Shown here: positions 12,969 to 63,120 of the stretch, piece after piece
How positions within the stretch are numbered: the stretch's first letter is position 1
Layout of the letters: the number at the start of each line of letters is the position of its first letter
Assembly: GCA_025765615.1 (NCBI GenBank)
Contig: JAIVFJ010000167.1
Coordinates: forward strand, 1-64,000
Reading direction: 5' to 3'
Origin: Zopfochytrium polystomum
Lineage: Eukaryota > Chytridiomycota > Chytridiomycetes > Chytridiales > Chytridiaceae
Length of the DNA: 64,000 nt
The notes under the pieces: model-generated
What the model saw: the letters and a program-made list of their open reading frames with translations, nothing else
What the model was told of the DNA's origin: nothing
Database searches by the model: none
Translations under genes and position numbers: made by a program

Positions 12969-13040
12969 TGTTTCCAATACAATCATCACTCCTCTCAGTT
13001 CCTTGTCTGCCTTGCCCTGTCCTGCCCTGTTCCTGACATC

Positions 13041-13051
13041 ATAATTCACTT
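13041..13051 (+). other. primer-binding site for self-priming
   Basis: ATAATTCACTT begins 2 nt after the 5' LTR and pairs over 11 nt with the predicted 5' end of the transcript (12958-12968). I recognise no tRNA 3'-end complement here. Confidence 0.75.
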
Positions 13052-13078
13052 CACCCTCTCCCACTACTCTCTGCCATC

Positions 13079-14002
13079 ATGTCTGACCCAAACAACACCT
13101 TCCCTGATGCAACTGCCTTCCAAGCCTTGATGGACCAATTACAAGCCCTTTCAAGACAGACACACCAACTTCAAGAACAAGTCCTTCACCAGCAGCACCA
13201 GCTTCAACAACAACTTCACCAACAAGAACATCAAGCTCTTCCCCTGCCTCAAGCCAACCAAGCAAGAGAGCCCAAGGTTCCCAGCCCTGACAAGTTCACT
13301 GGGCTGGCCAAAGACCTTAGGAACTTCATGGCCACTGTGGAGAATGTCATCCTTCTCCAACCTTCAAGATTTCCCAGTGAGCAAGTCAAGGTTCTTTTCA
13401 CAAGCACCCTCCTGTCTGGTCAAGCTCAATCATGGTACAGATCTCTCCCAAGCACACCCACCACCCTGCAAGAGCTCTGGGAGGGGCTGGAAGCTACCTT
13501 TGGTGACCCCTACGCATCTTGGACAGCAAGATCCAAGCTCAAGCATATCAAGCAAGGAAAGCAATCTTGTGTGGCCTACACCAACCAATTCAAGCAACTA
13601 GCCAGAGACTCTGGATACAATGATGCAGCTCTGATGGAGCTGTACCATGATGGTCTCCATGAGTCTATCCAAGACATGCTCTCCCAGTCTCTGCACATCC
13701 CTGAGACCTTGGAAGAGTACATTCTCCTTGCCATCAAGATTGACAACAGACTCTACTCCAAGAGGCTGAAGCAAAGACAAGTAGGAACTACATCAAGACC
13801 TACCCCAGTTCCTCAAGCTCTTACAGTTCCTGAACCCATGCAAGTGGATGCAGTTGAGACACTTCCTAAGGGTCCTCTGAGCCAAGAGGAGAAAACAAGG
13901 AGGGCCCAGCAGGGATTGTGTTTTTACTGTGGCTCCAAGGAGCATGCTGTCAAGGACTGCCCAAGGAAGAAGCACCCAAACTCCCAGGTCCAGGCTCACT
14001 GA
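13079..14002 (+). CDS. gag: Gag polyprotein of the chromovirus
   Basis: 307 aa. The N-terminal part is Gln-rich and probably coiled coil (residues 20-60). A retrotransposon capsid region follows (about residues 75-225; motifs QAQSWYRSL and LEATFGDP), then a CCHC zinc knuckle (CFYCGSKEHAVKDC, about residues 280-293) for RNA binding. Gag forms the virus-like particle that packages element RNA. The ATG at 13079 is 40 nt after the LTR. It overlaps pol, which lies in the -1 frame. Confidence 0.92.
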   Translation: MSDPNNTFPDATAFQALMDQLQALSRQTHQLQEQVLHQQHQLQQQLHQQEHQALPLPQANQAREPKVPSPDKFTGLAKDLRNFMATVENVILLQPSRFPSEQVKVLFTSTLLSGQAQSWYRSLPSTPTTLQELWEGLEATFGDPYASWTARSKLKHIKQGKQSCVAYTNQFKQLARDSGYNDAALMELYHDGLHESIQDMLSQSLHIPETLEEYILLAIKIDNRLYSKRLKQRQVGTTSRPTPVPQALTVPEPMQVDAVETLPKGPLSQEEKTRRAQQGLCFYCGSKEHAVKDCPRKKHPNSQVQAH

Positions 14003-14020
14003 GGGGCAATTCCCTGGACC
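13975..14020 (+). promoter_or_regulatory. -1 programmed ribosomal frameshift signal (gag-pol)
   Basis: Slippery heptamer CCCAAAC (13975-13981) is positioned as C CCA AAC in the gag frame, the required X XXY YYZ phase. Five nucleotides downstream GGTCCAGG (13987-13994) can pair perfectly with CCTGGACC (14013-14020), an 8-bp stem with an 18-nt loop. Pol lies in the -1 frame and is open from here. The gag stop is at 14000-14002, inside the loop. Confidence 0.85.
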
Positions 14021-17000
14021 CTCCTCCAAGCTGCCCCTGTTTCATCACCACCACCAGCACCACAAACACCTCAGATTCCAAGCCCCACCAACTCACCATG
14101 GATGTCAAGATTCAACTCTCACCCAAGTCAACCATCACAACCAAGGCCCTTATAGACTCTGGATCATCCTGCAACATCATTGATGCCACCCTTGCCAAGT
14201 CTTGTGCCATTCCTACGATCAAGAAATCCACACCCCTCAAGGTCCACTTTGCCAATCATGCTCTGTTCAAGGAAATCAGCCATGAAACCAAGCTAAACCT
14301 CCACATCCAAGACTTTCCACCATCCATGGTCAATCTGGAAGTATTGGATCTTGGCTCACCCACATTCTCTGTCATCCTGGGATTACCATGGCTGCAAGCC
14401 CAGAACCCTGCCATTGATTGGGTCACTGGTCAAGTCCAACCTCCACCAATTGGAACAGTCACCCAAAACTCAAGTCAAGCCCCCAAGTCTCATGCTCTCA
14501 AGCCCTTGATTCAAGATTCACAGCCAGCCAAGACTCCAGTTCCACAGTTCACAGTTCACAGTCAAGATTCAAGTAGAGCTCATAGAGCTCACAGTCATGG
14601 CCATGACTCTTGTTCACAGAACCCACAGTCAAAGATTCAAGTACCACAGTTCACAGTCCACATTCAAGATTCAAGTTCCACAGCTCACAGTCTTTGCCAA
14701 GAACAGAACTCTCAGTCAAAGATTCAAGAATCACAGTTCCCAGTCAAGAATTCAAGCCCCACTGCTGAGGAGCACGACAACCTGGACCCATCAGACCTTT
14801 TGCTGGCATCCAAGCTACCAAAAGAATATCTCCCTTATGCTGATGTGTTTTCCAAGACCAAGGCAGACCTGCTACCAGCTCAGAGGCCTTATGACTGTGA
14901 AATCCCACTCAAGGATGAAACTTGCAGCCCACCTTTCAAGCCACTGTACCACCTCTCTCCACCAGAAGCCAAGGCCCTCCAAGAATACATTGAAGAAATG
15001 CTGAACAAGGGATTCATCCAACCTTCCAAGTCACCAGCTGGAGCTCCCATCTTTTTTGTCAAGAAGAAGGATGGGGGACTGAGACCCTGTGTGGACTACA
15101 GAGATCTCAATGAGATGACAGTCAAGAACCGCTATCCACTGCCTCTCATCTCTGAATTACTGGACAAACTGAGCCATGCAAGGATATTTTCCAAGATTGA
15201 CCTCAGAGGTGCCTACAATTTGGTCAGAATTAAGCCCCAGGATCAATGGAAGACTGCCTTCAGATGCAAATACGGTCACTTTGAGTACTTGGTTATGCCC
15301 TTTGGACTTACCAATGCTCCAGCTATTTTCCAAGGCATGATGAATGACATCTTCAGGGATATTCTGGACCTTTTTGTCATTGTCTACCTGGATGATATCC
15401 TGGTATTTTCATCTGACACTGCAAGCCATATGGGACATGTCAAGACTGTCTTGGAGAGACTCAGACAGCATCACCTCTATGCAAAGCTGGAGAAGTGTGA
15501 ATTCCACAAGACCTCCATTGAGTTTTTGGGGTTCATTGTGTCTGACAAAGGGATCTCCATGGCACCAGACAAGATCCAAACTATTCTTGAATGGAAGGCT
15601 CCAAATTCCATCAAGGATGTTCAAAGCTTCCTTGGATTTTGCAACTTCTACAGAACCTTCATTGCCAACTATTCTGCCATAGCCAAGCCTCTCACTGATC
15701 TCACCAAGAAGACCACCAAGTTTGAATGGACCCCAGCAGCAGAGCAAGCCTGGCTAGCTCTTAAGACAGCAACCACAAGTGCACCACTCCTTAAGCATGT
15801 GGATCCCTTGCTTCCCTTCACCTTGGAAACTGATGCCTCAGACTATGCCCTTGGCGGTGTTCTGTCCCAGCCAAGCTCTCAGGAACCCTCTGCTCCTCTG
15901 CATCCAGTGGCATATTACTCCAGGAAGCTGAACAGTGCTGAGTGTAACTACACAGTCCATGACAAGGAGTTGCTTGCAATTGTGGAAGCATTCAAATTCT
16001 GGAGACACTACTTGGCTGGTTCTAAAGGCATCTCTGTCTATTCTGATCACAAGAACCTCACCTTCTTCAGGGCAAGGAGGTTGCTCAAGCAGAGGCATGC
16101 CAGGTGGGCTGAACTGCTCTCTGAGTATGACTTTAAGCTGTGCTATTCTCCTGGCCACCTTAACACTGTGGCTGATGCCCTGTCAAGAAGAACAGACCTT
16201 GCACCTGAAGGGGGAGATGGTTTCACCCCACCATCCAAGACACACCTTTCATTGCTTCCTGACAGTGTGTGGGCCCATGCTATTTCCAAGGACCCCAAGC
16301 CTCACAAGATTCAAATCAGCCAAGAAGAGGAAAAACTTGAGATACTCAAGACAAGGCATGATGCAGCAACAGCTGGACACCCAGGAGAGCACAAGACATA
16401 TGAGCTTGTTTCCAGAGACTTCTACTGGCCAGGCATGAGGAAGTACATCAAGAACTATGTCAGCAGCTGTGAAACCTGTCAAAGAAACAAATCCAGCAGA
16501 CACAAGCCCTATGGACTTCTGGAGCCCCTCCCAATTGCCATCAGCCCTTGGTCATCAATATCCATGGACTTCATTGTGAAACTGCCCCCATCCCATGGAT
16601 TTGACTCTATCCTTGTTGTCATCTGCAGAAGGACAAAGTTGGCCCATTTCATCCCCTGCACTGAGAATATAGATGCACAAGGAACAGCAGACCTGTTTTT
16701 GCAGCACATATTCAGGCTCCATGGGCTGCCTCAGTCAATCATCAGTGACAGAGGACCACAGTTCAGATCTCAATTTTGGAAAGCACTCACAGCAGCCCTT
16801 GGAATCAAGTCTCAACTGTCAACTGCTTATCACCCTCAGACTGATGGACAAACAGAAAGAACAAACCAGACTCTGGAGCAGTATTTGAGGTGCTATGTCA
16901 GCTATCAACAGGATGATTGGCCCACCCTCCTTCCACTGGCAGAATTTGCTCTCAACAATTCTCTCCACTCAAGCACCCAGCTATCTCCTTTCTTTGCAAC

Positions 17001-17637
17001 CTATGGCTTCAATCCAAGAGGAGATCTTCTGGGACAAGAGACCCTATCCAATGTCCAAGCTCCTGCTGCGGCTTCACACTTACATAAGCTCAAGATCATC
17101 AACTCCTTCCTGGACTCCACCCTGAAGCAAGCCCAAGAAGATGCCTCAAGATTTGCCAACACTCACAGAATGGACCATGACCTTGCTGTGGGTCAGCAAG
17201 TTTGGCTTCTGAGGAAGAACTTGCAGACCAAAAGACCAAGTCCCAAGCTAGACAACCTCAAGTTGGGACCTTTCAAGATCTTGGAGCAAATCAATCCAGT
17301 CACCTTCAAGCTGGATCTCCCTGCATCCATGAAGATCCACCCAGTTTTCCATGTCAGCCTTTTAGAGAAGTTTGTGGCCAATTCCATTCCAGGCAGAGTT
17401 GTTCCTCCTCCTCCTCCAGTTGAGGTAGAAGGTGAAGAGGAATTTGAGGTTGAACAAATCTTGGATGCCAAGTGGTTTGGAAGAACACTCAAGTTCCTTG
17501 TTAAGTGGAAAGGTTACTCAGATGCTGACAACACCTGGGAGCCTGAGTCAAACCTCACTCACTGCCAAGACCTTCTGCTCGAGTTCAAGACCAGGTACCC
17601 CACCAAGTTGCAGAAGAGGCCTAAAAGGGGGAGATGA
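13975..17637 (+). CDS. pol: Pol polyprotein: protease, reverse transcriptase, RNase H, integrase, chromodomain
   Basis: About 1220 aa, entered by -1 frameshift from gag. Order of domains: aspartic protease (LIDSGSSCNIID), reverse transcriptase (fingers VKKKDGGLRPCVDYRDLN, catalytic YLDD), RNase H (TDASDYALGG), integrase with HHCC zinc finger (HPGEHKTY ... CETCQRNK), catalytic DDE core (MDFIVKLP, SDRGPQF, TDGQTERTNQTLEQYL), then the GPFKIL and HPVFHVSLLEK C-terminal region and a chromodomain (FLVKWKGY, NTWEPESNL). The chromodomain is expected to steer integration through histone marks. No stop or frameshift interrupts it. The stop codon at 17635-17637 abuts the 3' LTR and overlaps the polypurine tract. 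Confidence 0.95.
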   Translation, partial: PKLPGPGSLRGNSLDPPPSCPCFITTTSTTNTSDSKPHQLTMDVKIQLSPKSTITTKALIDSGSSCNIIDATLAKSCAIPTIKKSTPLKVHFANHALFKEISHETKLNLHIQDFPPSMVNLEVLDLGSPTFSVILGLPWLQAQNPAIDWVTGQVQPPPIGTVTQNSSQAPKSHALKPLIQDSQPAKTPVPQFTVHSQDSSRAHRAHSHGHDSCSQNPQSKIQVPQFTVHIQDSSSTAHSLCQEQNSQSKIQESQFPVKNSSPTAEEHDNLDPSDLLLASKLPKEYLPYADVFSKTKADLLPAQRPYDCEIPLKDETCSPPFKPLYHLSPPEAKALQEYIEEMLNKGFIQPSKSPAGAPIFFVKKKDGGLRPCVDYRDLNEMTVKNRYPLPLISELLDKLSHARIFSKIDLRGAYNLVRIKPQDQWKTAFRCKYGHFEYLVMPFGLTNAPAIFQGMMNDIFRDILDLFVIVYLDDILVFSSDTASHMGHVKTVLERLRQHHLYAKLEKCEFHKTSIEFLGFIVSDKGISMAPDKIQTILEWKAPNSIKDVQSFLGFCNFYRTFIANYSAIAKPLTDLTKKTTKFEWTPAAEQAWLALKTATTSAPLLKHVDPLLPFTLETDASDYALGGVLSQPSSQEPSAPLHPVAYYSRKLNSAECNYTVHDKELLAIVEAFKFWRHYLAGSKGISVYSDHKNLTFFRARRLLKQRHARWAELLSEYDFKLCYSPGHLNTVADALSRRTDLAPEGGDGFTPPSKTHLSLLPDSVWAHAISKDPKPHKIQISQEEEKLEILKTRHDAATAGHPGEHKTYELVSRDFYWPGMRKYIKNYVSSCETCQRNKSSRHKPYGLLEPLPIAISPWSSISMDFIVKLPPSHGFDSILVVICRRTKLAHFIPCTENIDAQGTADLFLQHIFRLHGLPQSIISDRGPQFRSQFWKALTAALGIKSQLSTAYHPQTDGQTERTNQTLEQYLRCYVSYQQDDWPTLLPLAEFALNNSLHSSTQLSPFFATYGFNPRGDLLGQETLSNVQAPAAASHLHKLKIINSFLDSTLKQAQEDASRFANTHRMDHDLAVGQQVWLLRKNLQTKRPSPKLDNLKLGPFKILEQINPVTFKLDLPASMKIHPVFHVSLLEKFVANSIPGRVVPPPPPVEVEGEEEFEVEQILDAKWFGRTLKFLVKWKGYSDADNTWEPESNLTHCQDLLLEFKTRYPTKLQKRPKRGR
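17623..17637 (+). other. polypurine tract
   Basis: AAAAGGGGGAGATGA immediately precedes the 3' LTR, the expected primer position for plus-strand DNA synthesis. It also encodes the last residues and stop of Pol. Confidence 0.85.
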
Positions 17638-20600: not shown

Positions 20601-20789
20601 GGTCCCATCTGACCACCCTGGAGCACCATGATTGTCAGAGCACAGCTCAAAAACCTAACCAAGAAAACACCATAGAACATTCTCAAGAGTCAAGCTCGAC
20701 ACTGCCCAGTGGGATTTCTTGCTTTTTGGAGTGGGAGAGGGGGGGAAAACACTCTCTGGCACACAGCAGCATGGCCCCAACGGGCATAA

Positions 20790-20858
20790 GCCCATGGTGG
20801 GGATAGAACCCACGATCTCCCTTAGGTGGGGAACGCAATACCACTTTGCTACACCAGC
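20790..20858 (-). tRNA. tRNA-like sequence (probable pseudogene or SINE head)
   Basis: The minus strand has a perfect T arm (GTGGG, loop TTCTATC, CCCAC), a 5-bp anticodon stem around loop CACCTAA (anticodon CCT, Arg) and an A-box-like D arm. Position 33 is A instead of U and the acceptor stem has a mismatch and wobbles, so a functional tRNA is doubtful. Confidence 0.4.
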
Positions 20859-21139
20859 CTAGATAGCGCATTGACTTTTATGGATTTTTGCCCTTTTTAG
20901 TGCAACTTTTGTCAACTTCAGCCATCAAGCTGAGATCATCAGTGCAAAAGAAAAAATAAATAAATAAATAAAAACAAGATAAATGAATGAAAAAAAAAAT
21001 TAATAAATAAAAAGGGCAGAGGCCCTAAACCGAAATTTTCACCAGACAATCTCCAAAAAAGGAATGGATTCCTTGGCATCCCCAGCTGAATAATGCCAAG
21101 TCCGTATCTGCTCCTTGCACAGAGAGGCATCAGGCATCA

Positions 21140-22406: not shown

Positions 22407-22520
22407 TGCTCTGGGTGAGAGTCGAACTCACGACCTTCGGATGTCTGTGCAATACACCTGGGTGTGACCAGGGAATTGCAGGTATGAGACCGACGCTTTA
22501 ACCAACTAAGCCACCAGAGC
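22407..22520 (-). tRNA. tRNA-Met(CAT), elongator type, with a 40-nt intron
   Basis: Halves 22520..22483 and 22442..22407 form a cloverleaf: acceptor GCTCTGG/CCAGAGC (7 of 7 pairs), A discriminator, D arm with GTTGGTTAA, anticodon loop CTCATAA, T arm GTGAG-TTCGACT-CTCAC. The intron at 22482..22443 lies at the canonical position after base 37. The U-U pair at the loop-closing end of the anticodon stem is also typical of elongator tRNA-Met. Confidence 0.9.
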
Positions 22521-30789: not shown

Positions 30790-33259
30790 ATGGGAGTCAT
30801 CGAGAACAATCCCAGCAGCGATGGCGCCGAGGCCTCCGCCGCAAGTCCGTTCCACGCTCGTGTGCGCGGCGGTCTGTCATGGGCAGAGTACGTGCATCTG
30901 AGGGACCAGCCCGCCCCCAAGGAGACGCCGCACATCTTCAAGTACCAGGCCCGATCACTTCTTGTGGGTGAGAGATGGAGAGAGTGATTGAGCACGAAGA
31001 GGCGGGGGGAGCGGGGAGCGATGAGCAATCGTGCGGTACCTTGGATCTGGGTTATCTTCCCTCGCCGCCGCGTCCCTAAGTGCTCACCCAATTCCCATTC
31101 CTCTCGCAGACTGCTCTGAAGTCCCGTCTCGAAGCAACCGACACAGAACCCGAAGATGCCTCATGCGCGACTGACAAGCCGCTGATGCTAGCGCTCGTCG
31201 ACTACCACTTGGGACTGAACATGATCAACACGGAGGAACTGACGGCCGGCGAGAAGCTTCTGTCGTCGAGCGTCGCGCGACTACGACCCTCAGCTGACCA
31301 CGGCGCATGCATCGCCGCCTTGATCGACGGGCTCAACCAGGTCGCGGTCGTTTGGTCCGACTGGAACGAGCCGCGCAAGGCCGCTGGACTGCTGGAAGAG
31401 GCCGTCGATCTGTTCAAGGCGTTCAAGGCGAAAGGCAAAGAGCCCATTGCCGATCCATTTGTTGGCTGGTTTGACGTCGACGCGAAGTTGGATGGTTGGT
31501 GGATTCAGTAAGGAGAGTGTGGACTACCGACTCTGAACGCTCTTTCTGTTTCTCTCACGAACTCCCAGACGGATGGGCATACTTGGAAGGCCTACACACA
31601 TTTTCAACATACTATCTCGCGCAGGTTTATGGGACCCTCAAGTTGAAGGACAAGGCAAGACGACACGACTTTTTCCCTCGTCTAACGTAGCTTTCCGTCC
31701 CACGTAAAAACCGAGCAGAGCGCCGAGCTGTGCAAGCTAACGCTACAGAGGCAGCTCAAGCACGGCAAACTCATTGGACTGACGTGGGCTCTTGACTGCA
31801 TGACGCTTGCGCAGTACTACCATCAAAACAATGCCTTCCCCTTGGCATACCAGTGTCTTGCGAGTTCCGAACACGTTTTGCACTCGACCGCGATTCCAGA
31901 CGATGTTGCCGACGGCAGCGTCTCTGGAGAAAGCGGCGAAAACGGCCTCGTGCGAGCGAAAGCGGACCTTTCATTCATTTGGGGAAAGTTTTATCTTGCG
32001 GCGTTGGCCATTTCTGCGTGAGTTTGAAGAGCCATCACTTGCCTGTGTTTTTATGGTCAAAACTTACCGCTTCCTGCCCTTACACTGAAAGGGAGCGACG
32101 GGAGAGCGGGACCACGAGGTAGTGTATTACGAAAGCTGGCGACAGCGGGGTCTTACCCTTACTCATTACGTCTTGAATAGGGCCACGATTCCAGACTCTT
32201 CTGATGATGCAGTTCTGTTTGACGGTCTTCCACCTCTGTCAGAAAAGCGGAACCCAAAACTGATCCCGCCGCGTCCCAAGATTCCAGACCAGTTCGCAAC
32301 GACGCCAGCCGAGGCACGAGAGCTGTTTCTCGCGGCCATCACCTCGTTCTCGTCCGCGCTGACCTTCTTCAAGATCGACGGCCACGTGACAGACCACGTC
32401 CTGATCACGCAGGACCTTTCTCGGGCGTACGACTACTTTTCGCGGTTTGAGGACGACGCAGGGAAGCGCTGGAAGCTGCACAAGCGGCGATACGAGATGC
32501 TGAGCACGCTGATCGGGGTGGCGAACGCGACCGCCGGGAACCTCGGGGAGTCCGGGTCCTTTGGGTCTCGCGGGGGCGGCTTGTCGAAGACCCATTTTCG
32601 CGGGCTGGTGCAGCAGGTGTCGTACGAGATTGCGACGGTGCTGGAGTCGATGGCGGACGAGAAGAGCGAGCTGCTGGAGCAGGTCGAAAAGTCGTCGGAC
32701 AAGGACAAGGACAAGGCCAAGAAGCGCAGGGAGCTGTCGAACGATGTGAGGGACGCCACATCCAAGGGAATTGCTTTTTATGAGGAGTTTATCAAGCTCT
32801 TCAACAATACTGACGGCACAATGCCGTTCCCCTTTGAAGACCCGGACGATGCTGTGAGAAGATTTTCACTCCTGGGGCCATTCTTGCTACTAACCACAAC
32901 GTACATTTTTGGGTGCGGCCCCCAGCGGACGGTCATGACCGCTCGAGTCCGGCTTGCCTTTCTGTGGTCGAAGTTGGAGCCGTCCGTGTCGTCTTCGTCC
33001 ACCATGGCATCCTTGAAGCTCGAAAAAGTGACGTACCTCCGGAACAGGTGGGTCATTGTGAAACCCCTCCACAAAATCGAGCGTTGACACACCTTTTTTA
33101 TATATTTTCCTTGCCCGTCGCCCTAGCCACAAGCAATATGAGTACGTGCAAAAATACCACCGGGCGCACGGCGTTCCCGAGTTTGCCGAGACGGCGGATG
33201 TGGTCGACCAGATGGTAGGCTTGATGGCGCGGCAGATTGTGGAGTTGCAAAGGAGCTAG
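30790..33259 (+). CDS. KIFBP: KIF-binding protein homologue
   Basis: Eight exons fit in frame: 30790..30963, 31110..31494, 31569..31654, 31719..32017, 32123..32149, 32181..32853, 32926..33047, 33127..33259, giving 632 aa against about 620 for the human protein. Matching stretches include YHLGLNMINTEELTAGEK, HTFSTYYLAQVYGTLKL, TWALDCMTLAQYYHQNN, the EARELF ... FKIDGHVTDH region and KRWKLHKRRYEML. The family is an all-helical TPR-like solenoid that binds kinesin motors. The third intron (31655) starts with GC, a GC-AG intron, and exon 5 is 27 nt. Exon 5 is the least certain; it falls in a weakly conserved loop. Confidence 0.85.
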
Positions 33260-40329: not shown

Positions 40330-40566
40330 TAGTAAACAACACGATGAGTTTAATGAATAGCGGCAGCCCCTTTCTTTCTTCTTTTTTTGTGTACTCTTGT
40401 CTCTGCTTTCGGTCGAACAGCTCGGTCCGACTCGGTTGACGTCATGACTACGGTTGCTGGTGTCCTTTCTTGCTGCGCAGTTCGGGTGATTTGAAAATCC
40501 GAACGATGGTGTGTCCCCCGTGACAAGCGGCGAAATTGGAAAACACGGAAAAACAGAAAAAAAGTA

Positions 40567-41935
40567 ATGGCGTCTACTGCAAGCTCTGCCGCTTCGACGA
40601 CGGCGACGTCGAACTCGCAGCGTGAGGATGCGATCGCGCTCGCCGTTCGCTTCTTGAAAGACCCAAAGGTGCAGCAAGCCCCCCTCACTAAGCGCATCGC
40701 CTTCCTCGAGTCCAAGGGCCTCTCGTCCGACGAGATCGACGAGGCCGTCAAGCGTGTCAACGGCGGCAGCAGCACTAGCAGCAGCAGCAGCCCCGCCACC
40801 ACCACCACTACCACCACCGCCGTCGTGGCAACCGACGGGGCAGCCGCCCAGCCGCCCCCGCCGCCTCCTCCGGTCGGACCTCTCCCGCCGCACCTGGCAG
40901 CCTACCCGCCGCAGCCAGGCTACCCCCCGCAGCCGGGCTACCCCGTTCCGTACTACCCCGCTCCCTACGCTCCGCAACTAGCCCCGCCCGCCGTCGGCCC
41001 GTCGCCGCAAAAGATGGACTGGAAGGACTACACGCTCGCGACCATCGCGGCCGGCGTCGGCACGTACACGCTGTTCACGCTCTCCAAGCAGTACATTGGG
41101 CCGTACCTTTCGTGGCCGACCGAGGCCAAGCTGAGCGACGACCAAAAGCGCATCGAGACGCGGCTGGACGCGGCGACGCGCGCTCTGGACGCCAGCGCCG
41201 AGGCCGGGCGAGGCGTCGCAAAGAGCATCGACAGGAACGCGGAGAAGATCGAGGAGGCCGTCGGCAAGCTGCGCGATGCGGTCGAAGAGGTGCGGCGGGA
41301 GGAGGAGAAGAGGGAGGCCGAGGTCGCCGAGGTGCGCCGCGAGGTCAAGGAGGTTCGGGCCATGATTCCAAAGGTGATCGATCGTCTGTGTTTTTTTTGT
41401 TTCTAGTGTTTTTGACCCCACCGGAAACTGATCCTCGACCCCTCCTCCCCTTCCACTTGCGTTCCGCATCCCCGGACCATCCCAACCATTGCCAAAGCTT
41501 TTGGAAAAGTCGCGGGAGGCGCAGACGGCCGCGATCACCGAGGTGCAGAACGAGCTCAAGAGCTTGAAGAACTTGCTTCTGAACCGGCCGGTTCAGCGCG
41601 TTGGCGGCCCCGCGGGTGCGGTGCCTGCTGCCACTCCTCCGCTTACGGCTGCGCCGCTCACAGGCTCGCCCGCTCCAACCCCTTCCATCCTCCCTGCGGC
41701 GGACGCGGCGCCATCGCCGGCAGGAGTCAGCGTGGCCGCCGTCGCCGCTGCTCCCTCCACCGCGCCCCCCGCCCTCCCCGCCAGCGGAAGCGTCCACCTG
41801 CCGGCAGGTGCCAGTCTCCCCGCCATTGCGGGGCGCCCGTTCGGCAAGCCAGCGATCCCGGCGTGGCAGCTGGAAGCCTCGTCGGCGTTGCCGTCCTCGT
41901 CGTCGCCGACAGCCGGTTTGGAAGAGGGAGAGTGA
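40567..41935 (+). CDS. PEX14: peroxin-14, peroxisomal docking protein
   Basis: Two exons, 40567..41373 and 41498..41935, phase 0, 414 aa. Residues about 18-60 form the conserved PEX14 N-terminal domain (AVRFLKDPKVQQAPLTKRIA followed by FLESKGLSSDEIDEAV), which binds the WxxxF motifs of the import receptor PEX5. A proline-rich linker follows (PPQPGYPPQPGYP), then a membrane-associated segment (TLATIAAGVGTYTLFTL, about 158-175) and a long coiled coil (about 185-290). The tail is Pro/Ala-rich and disordered. It docks cargo receptors at the peroxisome membrane. It lies 237 bp downstream of NUDT21 on the same strand and about 5 kb from a PEX11-like gene. Confidence 0.92.
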
Positions 41936-46732: not shown

Positions 46733-48157
46733 CGTTCTTGCCGGTGCTGCAGGTGCTGCTGCAGGTTCTTTTGCTGAGTCGCGTCCGCGGTGACAGGGTG
46801 GTTGTCGTGGAAGTGGTCGTTGTCGTGGTCGTCGTAGCCGTCGTAGTCGGACTGGTTGCATGTGCATATTATTTGTATGATGATGCACCACCATCAGCGA
46901 GCGAGCGATAGGCCCAGCAAGGCAAGAAGCGCCCAAGCAGGGCAGGGCAAGGGCAGCAGCAGGGCAGCAGGGCAATCAAGGGCAAGGGCAAGGGCGGTGG
47001 GCGGCAAGGGGGCGGTGGGCGGCGAGAAGAGCGCGTTGTTGTTCGTGGCGGGCCGCCTTTGGGAGGGAGGGAGAGAGAGAGAGACAGAGCAAAAGAGAGA
47101 AATAGAGAGAGCGAGAGACAGAGAGAGAGTGTGTGTGTGAGGAGTGGGAGGGAAAGTAACAGAGAGAGACAGAGAGACAGAGAGAGAGATATGGTGGTCG
47201 TTGTTATCGTCCTGGCTCTGTCTCTCTGTCTCGCTCTCTCTGTCTGTCTCTGTCTCAGTTTGTTTGTGTTTTGTCTTCTTTTGCCTGTCTGTCTCTTCTT
47301 CTCTCTCGCGGTCGATTCCGGTCTCGCAATTTTCGGTCAGGAGGAATTCAGGAAGCAAAGGCTTCGATCCATGCGGCAGGTAGAGAGCGAGAGAGAGCGA
47401 GAGAGAGAGAGAGAGAGGGGGGGAAGGAGAGCGTGAGACAGGGCCGTGTCCCTCTGTGTGAGGAGGCCAGGTGGCTGGGTGTGGCGCCTCGGAACCCCAA
47501 GCACAACGTGAAATCCGACTGGTCGCGTAGGTCTGTCTGCCTGTCTGTGTGTCACTTATCTGTGTGTGCCTGTCTGCGCAGAAGCAGTTGCAACTTGTCA
47601 TGTAACATGTTGTTGATGATTGTTTTGCTTTACATGTCGCTGATCGAGAAATCCGCCACTCTCTTGTAAAAAAAAAAAAAAAAAAAAAAAAAAGTCCTGT
47701 AAAAAAAAAATGTTATTGGGGAGATTTATGTGAGCAAAGAACTCCATCGCGGCTATATTTATTGGCAATGGCAGACCTTGTGCACGAGAGATTGCAGACG
47801 GGAAAAAGGCACTTTACGTCTCAACAGTGAGGCAGAAAAACAACTGATTGGGGTTGGCTTGCGGCAACCCAAAAGCCATTTGCTTTCTGGATTTTTTACG
47901 GACCGCTCACATAGCCTCACGATTCCTCTGAAGCTGGCGAAATCTGGAACGTGGATGAGGTGCCAAAATCTGTTTTTGATTGATTAATTCACACAGAGTT
48001 TCTCGTCAATGATGATTGCGGATATACGTACGGTGCGTGGCCCAAGAGTGGTTGGTGGTGGCCGCTCGTTCATTTTCATTTTCATTTTTTTTTTCTTTCT
48101 TTCTTTCTTTTGTTTTTTGTTTTTTGCTTTTGTTTTTTCAAAGCGTTGGTTGCTGGG
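46733..48157. other. intergenic region with GA and CT/GT repeats
   Basis: GA-rich tract near 47060-47190, CTCTGT near 47215-47300, GA near 47386-47420 and a poly(A) run at 47669-47693. No gene recognised. Confidence 0.5.
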
Positions 48158-49417
48158 ATGCCGCCAGCCGACGATGACGTATCAGCAGTGGCCGCCCATG
48201 TCGGCGCACACGCCGCCCCCGCTGCTGAGACCGCCGACGCGCACCGCGCCGCCACCGACGACGACGACAACCACGACGGCGACGGCGATAACCACGACCG
48301 CGCCGCCTCCGCCGCCGCCGCCGCCGCCGCCGCCTCAGGCACAGCCGCAACCGCAACCCGGCGCCCCCGTCGCATCCCCTTCCTCGTCGCCACCGCAATC
48401 CTCTCCTACTTCGACTCTTCCGCGCACCGGCGCTTCCCGCTCGCCTGCCTCCTGCGCGTCCCGGCCGTCCAAGCGGACTCTCTCATCCGCCTGAAGGTCG
48501 GCCTCGTGCTCGACCACACGAGGTGCGTCGCCGCGTACGGGCTCCTCCTGGGCCACCTTCCGCCCGCGCGGCTCGAGCGCGCGTACTCTGCGCGCGCCAT
48601 GAACCTGGCCGACTCGGTCGAGCAGCTGCAGTGGTGGAAGGACAGCGGGCTGCCGCTGCGGTACACGCACGTGGCGATGCGGGTCGCCAGCCAGCGCGGG
48701 CGGGTCGATCTCCTGCAGTGGTGGCGGGACAGCGGACTGCCGCTCGTGTACGACGAGGTGCCGGTGGAGCTGGCGTGCATGAACGGGGAGACGGGGGTGC
48801 TGCAGTGGTGGAGGAACAGCGGGCTGGAGGTCAAGTACGACGAGAACGCTGTGCGGGCCGCGAGCGGGCGCGGGCACGTGCACGTGTTGCAGTGGTGGAG
48901 GGACTGCGGGTTGCCTATCAAGTACGACGAGGAGGCGACGAGGGAGGCGTCGTTCTACGGACGGACCGCCGTGCTGCAGTGGTGGCGGGACAGCGGGCTG
49001 GACGTCAAGTACACCGAGGAGGCGATGGACGGAGCCTCCGCTCCAGAAGTGCTGCAGTGGTGGAAGGACAGCGGGCTGCCAGTCAAGTACACGGCGGAGG
49101 CGGTGTGGAGGGCGTTTTTGTCGAAACGCGTGGATTGCTTGCGGTGGTGGGGGAGCAGCGGGCTGGAGGTCGACTGGGACGCTGTTTCTATCCAGAATAG
49201 CACCAGCTTGGAGATCCTGCAGTGGTGGAGGGCGTCGGGCTTGTTTCAGAGGTGGCTCGACCGCCAGAAGGACAAGCGAGCAGCGCTGAAGGGACTCAGC
49301 CAGCCATCGTGGCGCTGGGGCAAGAGAAAGCTTGACGGACTTCAACTGTGGTGGAAAAGAGAGCTGAAGGCGCTGGATGATGATGAGCGGCAAGTGCTGC
49401 AAGACGCAACAAGCTGA
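48158..49417 (+). CDS. 'LQWW' tandem-repeat protein (ankyrin-like repeats)
   Basis: 419 aa from the ATG at 48158 (MPPADDDVS). A disordered Asp/Ala N-terminus is followed by RIPFLVATAILSYFDSSAHR, F-box-like in texture. From about residue 155 tandem repeats of 29 residues run to about residue 365, each opening L-x-WW-[KR]-[DN]-SGL-x-x-x-Y and containing A-x-x-x-A/C-x-x-x-G, the helix-turn-helix rhythm of ankyrin-type repeats; seven or eight copies, the sixth shortened. It is probably a protein-interaction scaffold. From memory, similar WW-SGL repeats are expanded in chytrid genomes, which informed the taxonomic guess. Confidence 0.75.
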   Translation: MPPADDDVSAVAAHVGAHAAPAAETADAHRAATDDDDNHDGDGDNHDRAASAAAAAAAASGTAATATRRPRRIPFLVATAILSYFDSSAHRRFPLACLLRVPAVQADSLIRLKVGLVLDHTRCVAAYGLLLGHLPPARLERAYSARAMNLADSVEQLQWWKDSGLPLRYTHVAMRVASQRGRVDLLQWWRDSGLPLVYDEVPVELACMNGETGVLQWWRNSGLEVKYDENAVRAASGRGHVHVLQWWRDCGLPIKYDEEATREASFYGRTAVLQWWRDSGLDVKYTEEAMDGASAPEVLQWWKDSGLPVKYTAEAVWRAFLSKRVDCLRWWGSSGLEVDWDAVSIQNSTSLEILQWWRASGLFQRWLDRQKDKRAALKGLSQPSWRWGKRKLDGLQLWWKRELKALDDDERQVLQDATS

Positions 49418-55943: not shown

Positions 55944-55985
<42 letters not shown>

Positions 55986-57019
55986 CGTCCCGCCCCACAC
56001 GCCACCACCCTGAAAAAAAAAAAACTTTCCAAAAAAAAAAAAAATAACAGTGCTTACCAAGAAAAAGTTCTCGTGCCGTACGAGAATGCGTTCGAGATTC
56101 CGGACTCGGTTAGCTTCAGCGAGGCCGCCATGCTCCCGCTCGTCGTCCAGACCTCGTGGTCCGGCTGGCGCAACATTGGCGTCTCGCCGACCACAAAGCA
56201 CTCCGCCGCCGACAAGAAGGTGCAGTTTGTGTGTGTGTGTGTGTGTGTGTGTGACGCCGGTTTCTACTTCGGATGCTCGGTGGTTCAACAAAGCGCGGGG
56301 TTGTGCACACAAACGCTAACACACAATATTTTCAACATCAAAAAAAAAAAACAAAATCAGGGCGTCCTCATCTGGGGCGCCGGCGGCAGCCTGGGCAGCG
56401 TAAGTTTGCAAACCGCCGTGTCGATGGGCTTTGTTGTGTACGCGACGGCGAGCGAGCGGCACCACGCGGGGCTTAAGAAGCTCGGTGCCCACCGCACCTT
56501 CGACTACAAGACGAAGACGGTCGTCGCCGACATTGTCGCGGCCGCCAAAGCCGACGGCGTCGCCATCGACCTCGCCTACGACGCGTCGGGCGGCCTGAAC
56601 GAGTGCCTCGCCGTCCTCGCAAAGACGCGCTCGAAAGAGACCACCCCGCGCGTCGCGTCAGCGCCTTTCTCGTTGTGGCTGTTGACTTGGAGGTTTTGTT
56701 GCACCGCTTTCAAGTTTGCTGTTCTGCGTTTTATGTAATTCTTCTTCTTTTTATGTTAAAAAAAAAAAATAGGAAGCTGTTCCCCGCGTGGGGCGGCGTC
56801 GAGGCCGTCTTTGTCGTCCCGCCGTCGGACGCAAAGGAGCGGTCGGACTACTTCAGATTCGTGTTCAACGAGTGGACCCAGACGCGGCTCGCCAGCGGCG
56901 CGCTGGTGCCCACCCCCGCCGTCAAGGTCGTCGGCAGGGGCCTCGGGGCCATCCAGGGCGGCCTGGACGAGCTCAAGAAGGGCGTTAGCGGCGTCAAGCT
57001 GGTCGTCGAGCTGGACTGA
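55402..57019 (+). CDS. zinc-type alcohol dehydrogenase-like quinone oxidoreductase (MDR family)
   Basis: Four exons, 55402..55718, 56051..56219, 56361..56656 and 56773..57019, give 342 aa with all phases consistent. N-terminal GroES-like domain: ALNPVDRLQRD and VVGSDVAGVVEARGDGV. The Rossmann dinucleotide-binding motif GVLIWGAGGSLGSVSLQTA lies near residue 163, then FDYKTKTVVADI and LAYDASGG, and a C-terminal catalytic-domain return. The zinc-ligand Cys/His set of alcohol dehydrogenases is absent, as in zeta-crystallin/enoyl-reductase-like MDR enzymes of similar size. Likely an NAD(P)H-dependent reductase; substrate unknown. Introns contain GT microsatellites and long A-runs (55942-55981). 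Confidence 0.85.
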
Positions 57020-57851: not shown

Positions 57852-58280
57852 TCAACTGCCGGGGCTGTTAGGGCGCAGTGCGGGGCTTGCGGGACGCAGC
57901 GCGGGGCTTGCCGGGCGCAGAGCAGGGCTCGCTGGCCGCAGCGCGGGGCTGACGGAGCGGAGCGCCGGGGTCGCGGCGGCGAGGGTGTCTGCCACGAGAG
58001 CGGCGCCGTCTTGGCTGATGCGGTTTTCTAAGATATCCCCCCCAGAGAACCAGTTTGAGTCAGGGTTCCTGGCGGAGTGGAGGGGGCGGGGCGAGATAGA
58101 TATTTGTTCGCTCACCCTGAAGGTCGAGGGACACGGGCGCGGAATTGAGGACGAGCGCGTCGGCGAGCGCCTTTGCTCCCGCGTTGCCGACTCTGTTTTC
58201 TGGGGTTTGGTGGAACGAAGTGGGAAGAGCGAATTACCAAAATGGGTTGAAGCGAAATGTTGAACGCGCGCGAAGACCAG

Positions 58281-58313
<33 letters not shown>

Positions 58314-61300
58314 GACACGCTGACTCAACTGTGAAGGTCGATTGTGCGGAGCGCGCGGTTGGTCTTGAGCGCGTCGGCCAGCGCTTTGGCGCCCTTGTCC
58401 CCGATGCAGTTTTCTTTTTTTTTTTTTTTTTTGGTCGGCAGTCAGTTGAGACACACGCACCACACACACCCCCCCTCTCTCTCTCTCTCTCGCTTCTCTT
58501 ACCGTGCAGGTCGATGGATTGGACGGAAGCGTTTGTCTTGAGGGCGTCCGCGAGGGCCCTTGCGCCGCGGTCGCCGATGCTGTTGTCTGGTGGTGGCGCA
58601 TGTTAGAAGCAGGCTTTCAAGCGCAGTGGTGCCCCCCACACCTCTCCCCTGGCTACGCGGCTGCAAGCACAAACTCACAGTAGAGATTGATTCTCTGCAA
58701 GGTCGTGTTGGACTTTAGCGCGTCGGCGATGGCTTTTGCGCCGTCGTCGCCAATGGAGTTTCCTGTTCGGAGATGAGGACGATAAGGAGGAGGAGGGAGG
58801 AGGGTGAGAGCGGCCAACACAAGAGAGAGACAAGATGAGGTTGAGAAAGGGGCGTTCAACAAAAGAACAATAAGAAGAAGAAGAAAAACGAAAATAGGCG
58901 AATGATTGGCGGTGTTTACCTTGAAGGTCCAGGTTCAAGAGGCTCTTGTTCGTTTTGAGCGCTTCAGCGATGGCTTTCGCACCCTCGTCATGGATGTAGT
59001 TGTCTGGTGGGGTTTTCACGGTACATTGTCAACGGCCAAGAAGAGAGCAGGCGAGGGAGTTGTCTCATAGATTGTCAAGCACATTGTCAGAGGCGGGTAG
59101 TCGAACACAAGAAAGATCGAGATTGCACTCACAGCTTGGATCGACTCGTTCGATCGCATTGTTGACCTTGAGCGCATCGGCGATGGCCCGCGCTCCGAGC
59201 GGACCGATTCCATTCCCTGAAATAGGCGGTCAAACGGAAAAAATATGGGGGCAATGGGAGTGTGAGACAGTTATTGAAAAAAAGGTCGGTGCGGAAACTC
59301 GGACACGAAAAACGACAATATAGAAATCGAGAAGTGCTCACTCCATAGAACAAGCCTCTTCAGCGTGTTGTTGGTCCGCAGCGCTTCGGCGATGGCTGTT
59401 GCGCCTTGGTCACCGATGTTATTGTCTGAAAGGGGGTTTTTAGGGGTGAGGAGGGAAATAAGAGGCAAGAGCGAGGAAGTAGGAGGAAATAGAAACGTCA
59501 GAAAATGGACAGCCAGCAGGTACAAAGGTTCTCTTTGGAACAACTGCCAGCTTACTCCATAGATCAACGCTCTGAAGCGTTTTGTTGACTTTGAGCGCCT
59601 CGGCAAAGGCCTTCGCGTCGTCTGGCCCGATTCCGTTCCCTGCAGAACGGTTTTTTGTGGTTGCAGAGAGGAACAAGTGCGTCGTCAGCGACGGGGTGCC
59701 CATTGGAAGAAAAGAAAAGTGAAAAAGATGATAGACCGCTGCAAACGCGGCCGGTAAACTCAACAGCTAAGATCGATGCTTTGTATTGTCCGATTGGTCT
59801 TCAGCGCATCGGCGATGATTTGAGAGCCGGCCGACTTCAATTGAAAGTCTAGGTGGCGAAAGCGATTTTCGTTCAGTATCCGCCTTTGGGGGAAGGAGAA
59901 AAAAGAAAAGGGAGACGGAAAGTCCACCGACCCCTATGCACCAGCTCCAAATGCGTGACGCCCGTGATCAAATGGTGAATTTTCCGCGTCTCGCCGAGCC
60001 CGAGCGGCGGCCTCTGGATTCCGCCGCTGCGGTCCGCTCCCGCCGCCGACGACGCCAGCCGCAGCGCGGTCAGCAGCGCGGCGCCCGAGATGTCCGACAG
60101 CTTCAGGTCGACCGGATCGGGCGGGAGCGACGGCGACTTGAACGCCGCGCGGTCTTCGAGCGCCGGCGGCGGCGTCGGTTGGGGCGTTTGTGTGAGGGGC
60201 TGTTCTGTCGCAGCGGGGTCTGACGCTGCGGGCGGTGGCGGCGGGTCGTCGACGACGAGGGTGCGGACGGATTCGTCAGAGGCGGCTGCGATTGCCCCCG
60301 GCGTGTGGCGATGGTTGGTAGAGGTCGGTACCGTAACCGTTGCCTGCGCACCGTAAAAGGGGCCTCCTTCAAGGCTCTCACTGTCGGCCTGGGCCTTCGC
60401 CTGGCGTTGCGGCCACGGAATGGAGGCGACCGAGAGTACGTTGATGGAAGGTAGGGTGTGGGCAAACTCGACAAATTTCATCGAGGCCGAGGTGGTGAGG
60501 ATTGGGGACGTGACGGCCGATTCGAGCCGCACCGTGTCCTGGGGGCTGTCGGGACTGGGGCTGTCATCCGCTCGGTTCTGTCTGCCATCTTCGGACGGGC
60601 CATCTACAATGAAATATGGGGAGGAGGATACCAGGGTGATGGGGAAAAAAACAAGTGTGGGTGAAAAAGAAACAACCCCCTCAGGACTTACCACGGCTGA
60701 GAGGAGCGCTAGGATGCGAGGATACATTCTGCATCTCTTCGGCCAGGGCCTTCAACTCAAAGCACACGGCTCGGAACGCCGGTCGTTCAGCCAGGTCGAT
60801 GCTCCAACACTGCTTGAAAAGCCGGGACAGAACGGCGCCGACCGCCGTGCTGGAGCGGAAAACGTCCGAGTCGAGCTCGTGGATGAGGCTCTCGCGCTGC
60901 TCCTGGACCAGCAGCGCAGCGGTGACGCCCGCGACATCGATGCTGTCCCATGAAATCCCGTACACTCCTACCCAACTGACGACTTCGGTCATCAGCACGG
61001 CAAATGAGAACACGTCGTTTGCGTTCGAGATCTGCTCAAAAATAAGAGAAGGAAATTCAAAAACGAAAGGTTTACCAATGAACGTACTGAAAAAGGTTCC
61101 CTTCTCCCAAAAAGATCCACACGCCCCTCACCTTTGGCCGCATGAGCTTCCGTTCCGGTGCGAGCCACAGTGGCGTGCCCGCCACCGCAGAGGTCCTGCT
61201 GCGCGTCATGGTCTCGGTCTTGAGCCTGCTGAGGCCAAAGTCTGTAATCTTCGAGACGAGCGGGCCGTTGTGCATGTGTTGAGTGAGGAGGACGTTTGGG

Positions 61301-63120
61301 CTTTTGAGGTCGTTGTGCATGATCTTGAGGGTGTCGTGCAGGTAGGCCATGCCCGCGGCAACTTGGTAAAGGATTAAGACTCGCTGGTGGAGAGACGGCG
61401 TTTCGCGCATCGGATCTTGGTAGTAATCGTGAAGGGACCCAAGGGTGGCATACTGATGTCAAGCGAAAGGTACTTGTAGGTTACTCGGAGCGCAACAGAA
61501 AAGACCCCCAAGACATTGAAAATCATCGTACTCACCTCCAACACCAGCGCAAAGCCCGACTGTATTTGGAGCAGGCCGTGCAAGCCAATGACGAACGGAT
61601 GCCGCGACTTTTGCAGGATGTTTGCCTCGTTGATGAGCTCGAGGCGCGCGCGCTCGCTCATGCGCGTCAGCTTGAGCGCCTTGACGGCGACGGGGATGGA
61701 CCCGAGGAAGAGGCCGCGGTACACAGTCGCAAAGGCACCCTCCCCGAGCACGGTGGCGTCGTCGTCGTCGTCGCCGCCGCCGCCTCCGCCGCCGTCCGGA
61801 AATGTGATGTCGCTGCTGGCGACGCTGATGGATGCGAGGCCGGTGTTGGACGATTTCAGGATCCGCGCGGCAAGGCGCTCGTGGGAGGACGGCGTGACGC
61901 CGGCTTGGAAATCAATGTCTGAGTGTTTTTTTGTTTTTTTTTTCCCCCCGTCAGGAAACGCGGGTAGGGAGGCGAGCGAAACAGTAAACAGCAAAGCCGC
62001 GGACAAACCGTTCCCCCCTTCCTCACATGGCTGTCCCGCTGTCACCAGCGCCGCCGCGCCGGCCGCAACGTCGGCGTCCGCGCCGGCGAGCCGCACGGTG
62101 ACAATCGGCTTTCTCAGGGCGTTCGCGAGCTTGACCGCGAGCTTGCACCGGTGCGACGCGACAAACCCAGCCGACAGGAACGCCACGACCATGGCCGAGC
62201 GCCGAATGCCGGCCACCGCCGACTCGTCCATCGCGTCACCGTCGTCGTCATCGCCGCCGCCGCCGCCGCCGTGGCCGTCGCAGCCGCAGCCTCCGTCTGG
62301 AGTCGGCTCGTCGTCCAGCTTGCACAGGCGGATGTTCATGCTCGTAAGCTTGCCGGCGAGCGGCTCCACTGTCGCTCGGTCGAGGGGTGAGTACACGAGA
62401 ACGGCCTGGTATTGTGTTGTTGTTTGTTTTTTTTTTCCCAGGTTTTGAAGGATCGAGGGAGTTGTTATCGGTGAGCTCGCTGTCCAGTTTATAGAGGGGC
62501 TTCAAGTCCTTCACTTCTAGGACTTCGAGTCCGGGGGGGACTAAAACTCAACCCACATCGTAGTCGATCTTTGGAGACATTAGTCCCGCACCATTCTGCG
62601 GCAGCGGCGACCGCGACCGGGACCGCAACGCGTGTGGGGTCGGGCTCGGCGCCCGGATAGCAAGGGCCGTGGCGCAGTTGAGTCGGGCCATGCGGCGGGC
62701 GAGGGGACCGTCCAGGAGCTCGTCTTTGCTTCCGTCGTCGTTGTTGCAGCCGCCGTCCGCGGCTGGGCCTGGGTCGGCTGCGGCATCCGGCAGGATGAGG
62801 TCGATCGGGAGGGCAATCATCTGGTCGAGGGTGAGGTCCGGCGGGATGGCGCCGAGGCGCTGCAGGATGCGATGGTTCGAGTTGGTGAGGCCGTCGACGT
62901 TGTGGGCACAGAAGGTGGTGCCAGCTGCCGCGGCGGTGGGGGCGGCGGCGGTGGTAGTGGTGGTGGTCGTCGCGGTGGTGGCTGCGACAGTGGCGGCTGG
63001 AACTGTGGCGGTGCCGGTGGTGGTGGCGCGGTCAGGGGGCCAAAGGTGGCGCGAAGGAGGAGGAGGACGACCAGGAGGGGGAGGGGGAGGGTGACGCCGC
63101 GGGGTGGTGGTGGTGGCCAT
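57852..63120 (-). CDS. TIR - protein kinase - LRR receptor-like protein
   Basis: Sixteen exons join in frame (3591 nt, 1196 aa): 63120..62557, 62405..62027, 61918..61536, 61452..61132, 61031..60692, 60603..59932, nine 84-nt LRR exons, and 58027..57852. Residues 1-183 are Pro/Thr-rich. TIR, about 184-318: YDAVLVYSPLD, then GIRRSAMVVAFLSAGFVASH, KPIVTV and YIDF after the splice; the catalytic Glu position is Ala278. Kinase, about 370-650: G-loop LGEGAFATV, VAVK (Lys393), HND (488-490) instead of HRD, DFG (513-515), WLAPE, CWSIDLAERPAF. Linker about 660-886, disordered. Ten LRRs of RI/NLR type (N-x-IGD-x-GA-x-AIADALKTN) from 887; the tail is PALRPAS repeats. No signal peptide, membrane helix or NB-ARC/NACHT is seen, so it is probably cytosolic. 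A recognition or defence role is inferred. Confidence 0.88.
57867..57965 (-). repeat. (PALRPAS)n coding minisatellite at the C-terminus
   Basis: Five 21-bp units encode PALR-[PS]-[VAN]-S at the end of the TIR-kinase-LRR protein, a replication-slippage-prone tail after the last LRR. Confidence 0.8.
58116..59848 (-). repeat. nine tandem LRR exons, each 84 nt and phase 1-1
   Basis: Exons 59848..59765, 59639..59556, 59425..59342, 59216..59133, 59003..58920, 58762..58679, 58586..58503, 58413..58330 and 58199..58116 each encode one 28-residue LRR with both splice sites at the same place in the repeat. Any exon could be lost, gained or skipped without breaking frame. The tenth repeat opens the last exon (58027). 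Confidence 0.92.

Follow-up and report, generated by a model that had tools for sequence, protein, structure and literature searches.

The window analysed here is a 64,000-nucleotide stretch of the genome of the chytrid Zopfochytrium polystomum (C167:1-64000 of genome G000, 80.16 Mb in 761 contigs), on the minus strand of which (63120..57852) lies a 16-exon gene predicted to encode a single chain of 1196 residues, joining a TIR domain, a kinase of tyrosine kinase-like (TKL) type and ten leucine-rich repeats (LRRs) of ribonuclease inhibitor (RI) type. The TIR–kinase–LRR chain, as predicted from sequence, is almost certainly real, and it belongs to a gene family that is chytrid-specific on present data. 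We rate it an even proposition that its product is a receptor for recognition in the cytosol, a role to which the non-RD kinase, the presence of 20 versus 5 LRRs in near-identical gene copies and the variation at predicted ligand-facing positions of the repeats all point.

Gene model and domain architecture

All intron borders in the model are GT..AG and all exon phases fit without any adjustment of length, exons 7-15 being 84 nt each, of phase 1, with a single LRR per exon. The chain runs from a low-complexity head through the TIR domain, the kinase and a linker to the ten LRRs, and matched the Pfam profiles PK_Tyr_Ser-Thr (2.7e-41), LRR_6 (1.6e-38, in seven stretches) and TIR_2 (6.7e-8). NB-ARC and NACHT were absent from the Pfam list of the chain at E-values up to 1, while the same profile search of the Zopfochytrium genome does detect both at other loci, and no Death domain was in the list. 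In a hydropathy scan, which alone served as the membrane test, no hydrophobic membrane segment was found: the highest mean over 19 residues in the window chain, 1.66, falls within the kinase core, and no 19-residue segment in six family chains exceeded 1.9, the top ones again lying in kinase cores, with the exception of a lesser peak in the head of one of them (P0005).

A preliminary description of this stretch, made from the letters alone, had proposed a single TIR–kinase–LRR chain of 16 exons, without a nucleotide-binding domain, in a probably fungal genome. The spliced model and Pfam bear out the chain and its boundaries, the nucleotide-binding domain is indeed missing, the host is a chytrid, and the profiles TIR_2, PF07714/PF00069 and LRR_6 all matched. 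The TIR fold it placed in the chain also holds, TIR structures being the top Foldseek matches of the predicted structure; the fold is common to DNPH1-like enzymes.

A family of TIR–kinase–LRR genes

A search of the genome with the TIR–kinase part of the window chain gave 125 exon matches, and PF13676 (TIR_2) gave 98 matches. Each TIR_2 match was paired with a partner on the same strand no more than 1.5 kb downstream, the possible partners being 86 NACHT, 5 NB-ARC and 24 kinase places, the last chosen from the 125 exon matches. By this rule 17 TIR_2 matches precede a kinase, 21 a NACHT, 4 an NB-ARC and 56 none of these, counts which are lower bounds and in which some copies may be alleles.

Of the 16 other TIR–kinase loci, all but C60, C224 and C19 had their downstream DNA read, and at 11 of these 13 (12 of 14 with the window) an LRR array follows the kinase. 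The number of matched repeats differs widely, with 20 in C4, 14 in C199, nine each in C62, C129 and C415, seven each in C241_71k and C162_9k, five each in C144 and C241_81k, three in C241_77k and two in C241_29k, where the stretch read ends inside the array. Five annotated Z. polystomum proteins, P0001-P0005, come from contigs C162, C62, C129, C241 and C224, and the annotation gives a full TIR–kinase–LRR chain for each of P0002, P0003 and P0004. The window chain can be aligned with P0002 and P0003 from an N-terminal motif through the linker blocks and the LRRs. This motif (RILQRLGAIPPDLTLDQMIALPIDL, exon 1) recurs in P0002, P0003 and P0004 and weakly in P0005, whilst the linker blocks of exon 6 are common to P0002 and P0003, the first (VDLKLSDISGAALLTAL) also being legible in C4. 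P0001 (C162:31186-33994) is a TIR–kinase–kinase protein with its two kinase domains in tandem.

TIR domains in this genome occur in at least three settings. In four places TIR is directly followed by NB-ARC (C550:4237-5479, C250:7584-8833, C250:47378-48626 and C174:7925-9303), a pairing like that of plant TIR–NB-ARC–LRR receptors (TNLs), repeats aside, and 21 TIR_2 matches form a TIR–NACHT family (for example on C418, C436, C428, C18, C67, C57 and C120). Because these genes coexist with the TIR–kinase–LRR family, the lineage did not give up receptors of the NB-ARC/NACHT type for the TIR–kinase–LRR design. Elsewhere, seven or more Sel1-like repeats come after a TIR exon without an intervening kinase (L009, C52:276794 on), and P0079 (C57:301857 on) has a TIR and ca. 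540 residues without a Pfam match at E-values up to 0.001.

Variation of the LRR arrays

C4 and C144 share 95.1% identity over 3.3 kb, yet possess 20 and 5 LRRs, respectively. Within C4, the 17 introns between repeats have a mean identity of 95.8% (136 pairs). Positions 3, 23, 24, 26 and 28 of the repeat face outwards in or beside the predicted strand and are therefore predicted to face a ligand; in the C4 repeats pN (nonsynonymous differences) is 0.291 at these five positions and 0.028 elsewhere, a tenfold difference. Entropy was higher at the same positions in six of six arrays tested, using full-length repeats (13 of 20, 6 of 9, 5 of 7, 5 of 7, 7 of 9, and 8 of 10 in the window). What speaks against recognition as the cause is that the five exposed positions were chosen after the per-position table had been viewed, that 415 of 100000 random five-position sets reach the observed pN, and that pS (synonymous differences) is raised as well (0.211 vs. 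0.041, giving pN/pS of 1.4 vs. 0.7), a pattern that could also come from gene conversion or from an edge effect of mutation close to splice sites. The published signature of fungal NOD-like receptor (NLR) repeat domains, in the cited part of one survey, is conserved repeats with length polymorphism (PMC4986451). The LRR variation, judged from these alignments, resembles that of fungal NLR repeats but does not test cleanly for selection.

TIR and kinase domains

The window TIR scores 33.5 bits against TIR_2, above the cut-off of 28, and is the last and weakest of the 98 matches listed; its exon is 52% identical to that of C62. When the window TIR exon was aligned with those of 22 of the 97 further TIR_2 matches (23 exons in all, 15 of the 22 from TIR–kinase loci), Glu stood at the helix-C position in 22 of 22 others and Ala278 in the window, whose BB loop also carries a 20-residue Gly/Asp-rich insert. 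A profile of these exons hit PDB chains of Cat1, TLR, MyD88, RPS4 and AbTir, and a Glu of Cat1, which we take to be the catalytic one, falls at the same position. This Glu is required for NAD+ hydrolysis by TIRs and some TIRs are without it, according to the cited part of a review (PMC9153377). Because the Glu at the catalytic position is lost and the BB loop is filled, an enzymatic role is unlikely for the window TIR, and its sequence makes a scaffolding role likelier than NADase activity.

The kinase matches PF07714 (142 bits) ahead of PF00069 and is of TKL type; its nearest PDB sequences and nearest proteins outside Zopfochytrium are CTR1 and other TKL or tyrosine kinases. It keeps the VAVK, HND and DFG motifs, so that Lys, Asp and DFG are in place. 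Twenty-five loci were scanned for the catalytic loop, and in 18 of the 18 matched (a spurious extra pattern match in L017 was dropped) Asn stands for Arg, as HND in 16, HNN in one and HNA in one, so the family is non-RD. Non-RD kinases have been linked to innate immunity in plants and animals, with catalysis sometimes dispensable, in the cited part of one account (PMC8463890).

Divergence of the window copy

In a tree of the TIR and two kinase exons, in which the row for C162_33k mixes exons from two kinases, the window copy stands beside C62 and C129 (support 94/91, not starred), and its end branch, at 0.46, is the longest of all. Against C62 its dN/dS is 0.22 in the TIR exon and 0.12 and 0.13 in two kinase exons, with one exon saturated and synonymous sites near saturation (synonymous distances of 1.4 and more); on these ratios, the window copy is under purifying constraint. 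No second copy was found in the genome, where DNA matches to the kinase exon reach just 69-70% elsewhere.

Relatives and known systems

Protein searches scored a capped number of candidates sharing five-residue words, ca. 8000 each for the TIR–kinase part and for a profile. Five of 77 hits to the TIR–kinase part and the first 10 of 86 hits to the profile were from Zopfochytrium, the rest being general kinases, plant CTR1 first, except for P0025, a protein from a metagenome in which both TIR_2 and a kinase domain were matched. With the TIR of P0002 as query, all six hits, among 294 candidates, were again from Zopfochytrium. Choanoflagellate TIR–kinase proteins were not among the 77 and 86 hits from these capped sets of word-sharing candidates, and relatives in other organisms may exist.

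The choanoflagellate ‘Kinase TIRs’ and ‘Kinase TLRs’ of Richter et al. (2018) are the nearest known design; in the cited part of that paper they are held to be unique to choanoflagellates and are proposed as a streamlined sensor-to-kinase pathway (PMC6040629). Kinase TIRs have a Pkinase and a TIR domain in one protein without a membrane segment, as does the window chain, and Kinase TLRs unite LRR, kinase and TIR, in the order LRR–membrane segment–kinase–TIR, which the chytrid chain reverses and from which it lacks the membrane segment (PMC6040629). The host and the coding of the repeats differ too. The preliminary description had put the gene forward as an undescribed system, which does not stand for a lone system, the gene being a divergent member of a multigene family, nor as an unprecedented combination, because kinase–TIR and LRR–kinase–TIR proteins had already been described in choanoflagellates (PMC6040629).

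Like fungal NLRs, the chain has its effector or signalling domain first and a repeat sensor with length polymorphism last (PMC4986451, in part), here superstructure-forming repeats matched by LRR_6 (ten, exons 7-16), and it shares a TIR front domain with Chytridiomycota NLRs mentioned in part of another source (PMC9815663), such genes also being present in Zopfochytrium. It differs in bearing a kinase instead of NB-ARC or NACHT, and LRRs instead of WD, ANK or TPR repeats, the cited part of the NLR survey having found no LRR in fungal NLRs (PMC4986451). Likewise, TIR (PF01582) proteins and LRR pattern-recognition receptors were reported absent from 49 fungi in the cited part of one study (PMC2939053), and in part of another, fungal TIRs were nearly absent from EukProt and InterPro, Rhizoclosmatium alone having them in EukProt (PMC13142454). 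Having no nucleotide-binding oligomerisation domain (NOD), the chain is not an NLR, and having no membrane segment in the hydropathy scan, it is neither a Toll-like receptor (TLR) nor an LRR receptor kinase.

Unlike the NADases among plant TNLs, the window TIR is without the catalytic Glu that they need (PMC9153377, in part). The chain is otherwise like TNLs in its TIR front, LRR end and predicted cytosolic location, and unlike them in having no NB-ARC, a kinase in the middle and RI-type LRRs with one repeat per exon. As an idea, it recalls the MyD88–IRAK relay of animals, in which TIR and kinase also form one signalling unit, and in the PDB profile search the family TIRs lie near those of MyD88 and TLRs as well as bacterial Cat1. 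MyD88 and IRAK are two proteins joined through Death domains, unlike the chytrid TIR and kinase, which share a single chain without a Death domain in Pfam. Plant LRR receptor kinases, in which a membrane helix separates the LRR outside from the kinase inside, have LRR and kinase in one chain. In Batrachochytrium dendrobatidis, LRR-protein kinases do so too, and the cited description gives them no membrane segment (PMC2939053); the Zopfochytrium chain differs from both in adding a TIR.

Gene features and surroundings

The features of the gene are collected in Table 1. The SPALRPA tail (57852-57930) is similar to SPALRP stretches of the P0005 linker.

Table 1 Features of the TIR–kinase–LRR gene, in positions of the window.
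Feature	Position	Strand	Basis
Whole gene, 16 exons, 1196 aa	57852..63120	-	Spliced model, Pfam, collinear with P0002-P0004
Exon 1: start codon, low-complexity head and, from residue 84, short conserved motif RILQRLGAIPPDLTLDQMIALPIDL	62557..63120	-	Spliced model
Exon 2: TIR; Pfam match residues 192-323 extends into exon 3	62027..62405	-	Model, Pfam
Gly/Asp-rich insert in exon 2, residues ~221-243	within 62027..62405	-	Alignment of TIR exons
Codon GCG, Ala278, at catalytic-Glu position of NAD-cleaving TIRs	62136..62138	-	Alignment; codon checked
Exon 3: TIR end, kinase start; glycine loop from residue 372, VAVK from 391	61536..61918	-	Model, Pfam
Exon 4: catalytic loop HNDLK residue 488 (non-RD), DFG residue 513	61132..61452	-	Model, Pfam
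Exon 5: kinase C-lobe	60692..61031	-	Model, Pfam
Exon 6: disordered linker, then two short conserved blocks, VDLKLSDISGAALLTAL and GVTHLEL, at end	59932..60603	-	Model
Exon 7: LRR 1, 84 nt	59765..59848	-	Spliced model
Exon 8: LRR 2, 84 nt	59556..59639	-	Spliced model
Exon 9: LRR 3, 84 nt	59342..59425	-	Spliced model
Exon 10: LRR 4, 84 nt	59133..59216	-	Spliced model
Exon 11: LRR 5, 84 nt	58920..59003	-	Spliced model
Exon 12: LRR 6, 84 nt	58679..58762	-	Spliced model
Exon 13: LRR 7, 84 nt	58503..58586	-	Spliced model
Exon 14: LRR 8, 84 nt	58330..58413	-	Spliced model
Exon 15: LRR 9, 84 nt	58116..58199	-	Spliced model
Exon 16: LRR 10, SPALRPA repeat tail from residue 1163, stop	57852..58027	-	Spliced model

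Elsewhere in the window, gag and pol open frames of a Ty3-type LTR retrotransposon with a chromodomain occupy 13037-17634. A tRNA-Arg was called by ARAGORN at 20788-20859 without an Rfam match at gathering score, and an Rfam tRNA match at 22407-22520, not listed by ARAGORN, is probably intron-bearing because it spans 114 nt. The neighbouring genes are ordinary, with KBP_C (32089-33084), Pex14_N (40495-41403), ankyrin repeats (47984-49414) and an open frame matching ADH_zinc_N below its cut-off (55944-57019). On C144, a repeat (L081, 150000-151500) is present in at least 40 copies of ca. 99% identity and is thus a recently active element.

Alternative explanations and proposed function

That adjacent TIR, kinase and LRR genes have been mis-spliced into one chain appears very improbable. 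Three splice donors of the window model are weak, and the annotated protein at C144 (P0078, 515 aa) ends upstream of the LRRs, the linker found in C4 being missing there, although splicing from an in-frame GTGAGC donor could yet bring in the LRR exons; against an artefact, the annotation has P0002, P0003 and P0004 as unbroken chains, which align with the window chain across the joins, linker blocks included, arrays lie downstream of the kinase at 11 of the 13 paralogous loci read, and every phase fits. The window copy could also be a decaying gene of the family, or a decoy or brake pairing with intact sisters, which would suit the lost Glu, the BB loop filled with Gly/Asp repeats, the longest branch of the tree, the lowest-ranked TIR_2 match and the lack of a protein record among the search hits. 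We consider this quite unlikely, given 1196 codons free of stops and frameshifts with 15 usable introns at synonymous distances of at least 1.4, the low dN/dS where computable (with synonymous sites near saturation) and the retained kinase Lys, Asp and DFG.

Ordinary intracellular signalling, in which lineage-expanded TKL kinases use TIR and LRR as assembly or docking modules, e.g. in zoospore, nutrient or substrate sensing, is an unlikely explanation with some evidence on its side: the cited part of one study assigns no immune role to four LRR and kinase proteins without a membrane segment in B. dendrobatidis (PMC2939053), contigs of close kinase relatives (C39, C346 and others) gave no TIR_2 match, and some TIR members have Sel1 instead of LRR. 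Opposed to it are the abundance of TIR genes, which this genome holds together with TIR–NACHT and TIR–NB-ARC genes, the non-RD kinases, and the unstable LRR arrays with their variation at predicted contact positions. A recognition receptor has points to answer beyond those raised on the repeats, namely that Sel1 takes the place of LRR in P0005 (TIR–kinase–Sel1), that C162_33k and C94 are without an LRR array among the loci read (the former having a second kinase, the latter neither LRR nor Sel1 in the downstream DNA read), that the catalytic Asp is lost in two kinase exons and kept in 16 of 18, that P0078 stops short of the LRRs, and that searches with the TIR–kinase part and the profile found the window gene in no protein record. 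Because of the Sel1 repeats in P0005, the two loci without LRRs and the two kinases without Asp, the members cannot all work alike.

As a recognition receptor, the chain would bind a non-self or modified-self ligand through its C-terminal LRR solenoid, which would relieve inhibition or cluster chains, and the N-terminal TIRs, judging from their fold, would associate with TIRs of the same or sister chains. The non-RD TKL kinase, brought into proximity, would then phosphorylate a downstream cascade or act as a phospho-switched scaffold, and sisters bearing the Glu may also cleave NAD+. Because the Glu is missing and the BB loop is filled, the window member would most likely signal through its kinase, or serve mixed assemblies non-enzymatically, as a partner or brake. 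The single-chain sensor and transducer of the preliminary description thus stands as an interpretation, drawn from the gene family, the non-RD kinases and the variable LRR arrays.

More tentatively, and with the odds somewhat against it, we suggest that Zopfochytrium uses NOD-free cytosolic immune receptors of TIR–non-RD kinase–LRR design, arisen independently of those of animals, plants and choanoflagellates, whose specificity would change as single-repeat exons are gained, lost and shuffled and whose Glu-less members would be non-enzymatic partners. In one chytrid genome, 98 TIR_2 matches fall into at least three settings, one of them a TIR–kinase–LRR family whose repeat arrays are unstable. 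If the NOD-free reading is true, there would be LRR-based recognition in a kingdom reported to be without LRR pattern-recognition receptors, and if the recognition role is true, the family would represent a direct sensor-to-kinase design with no nucleotide switch and would add an LRR branch to fungal immunity.

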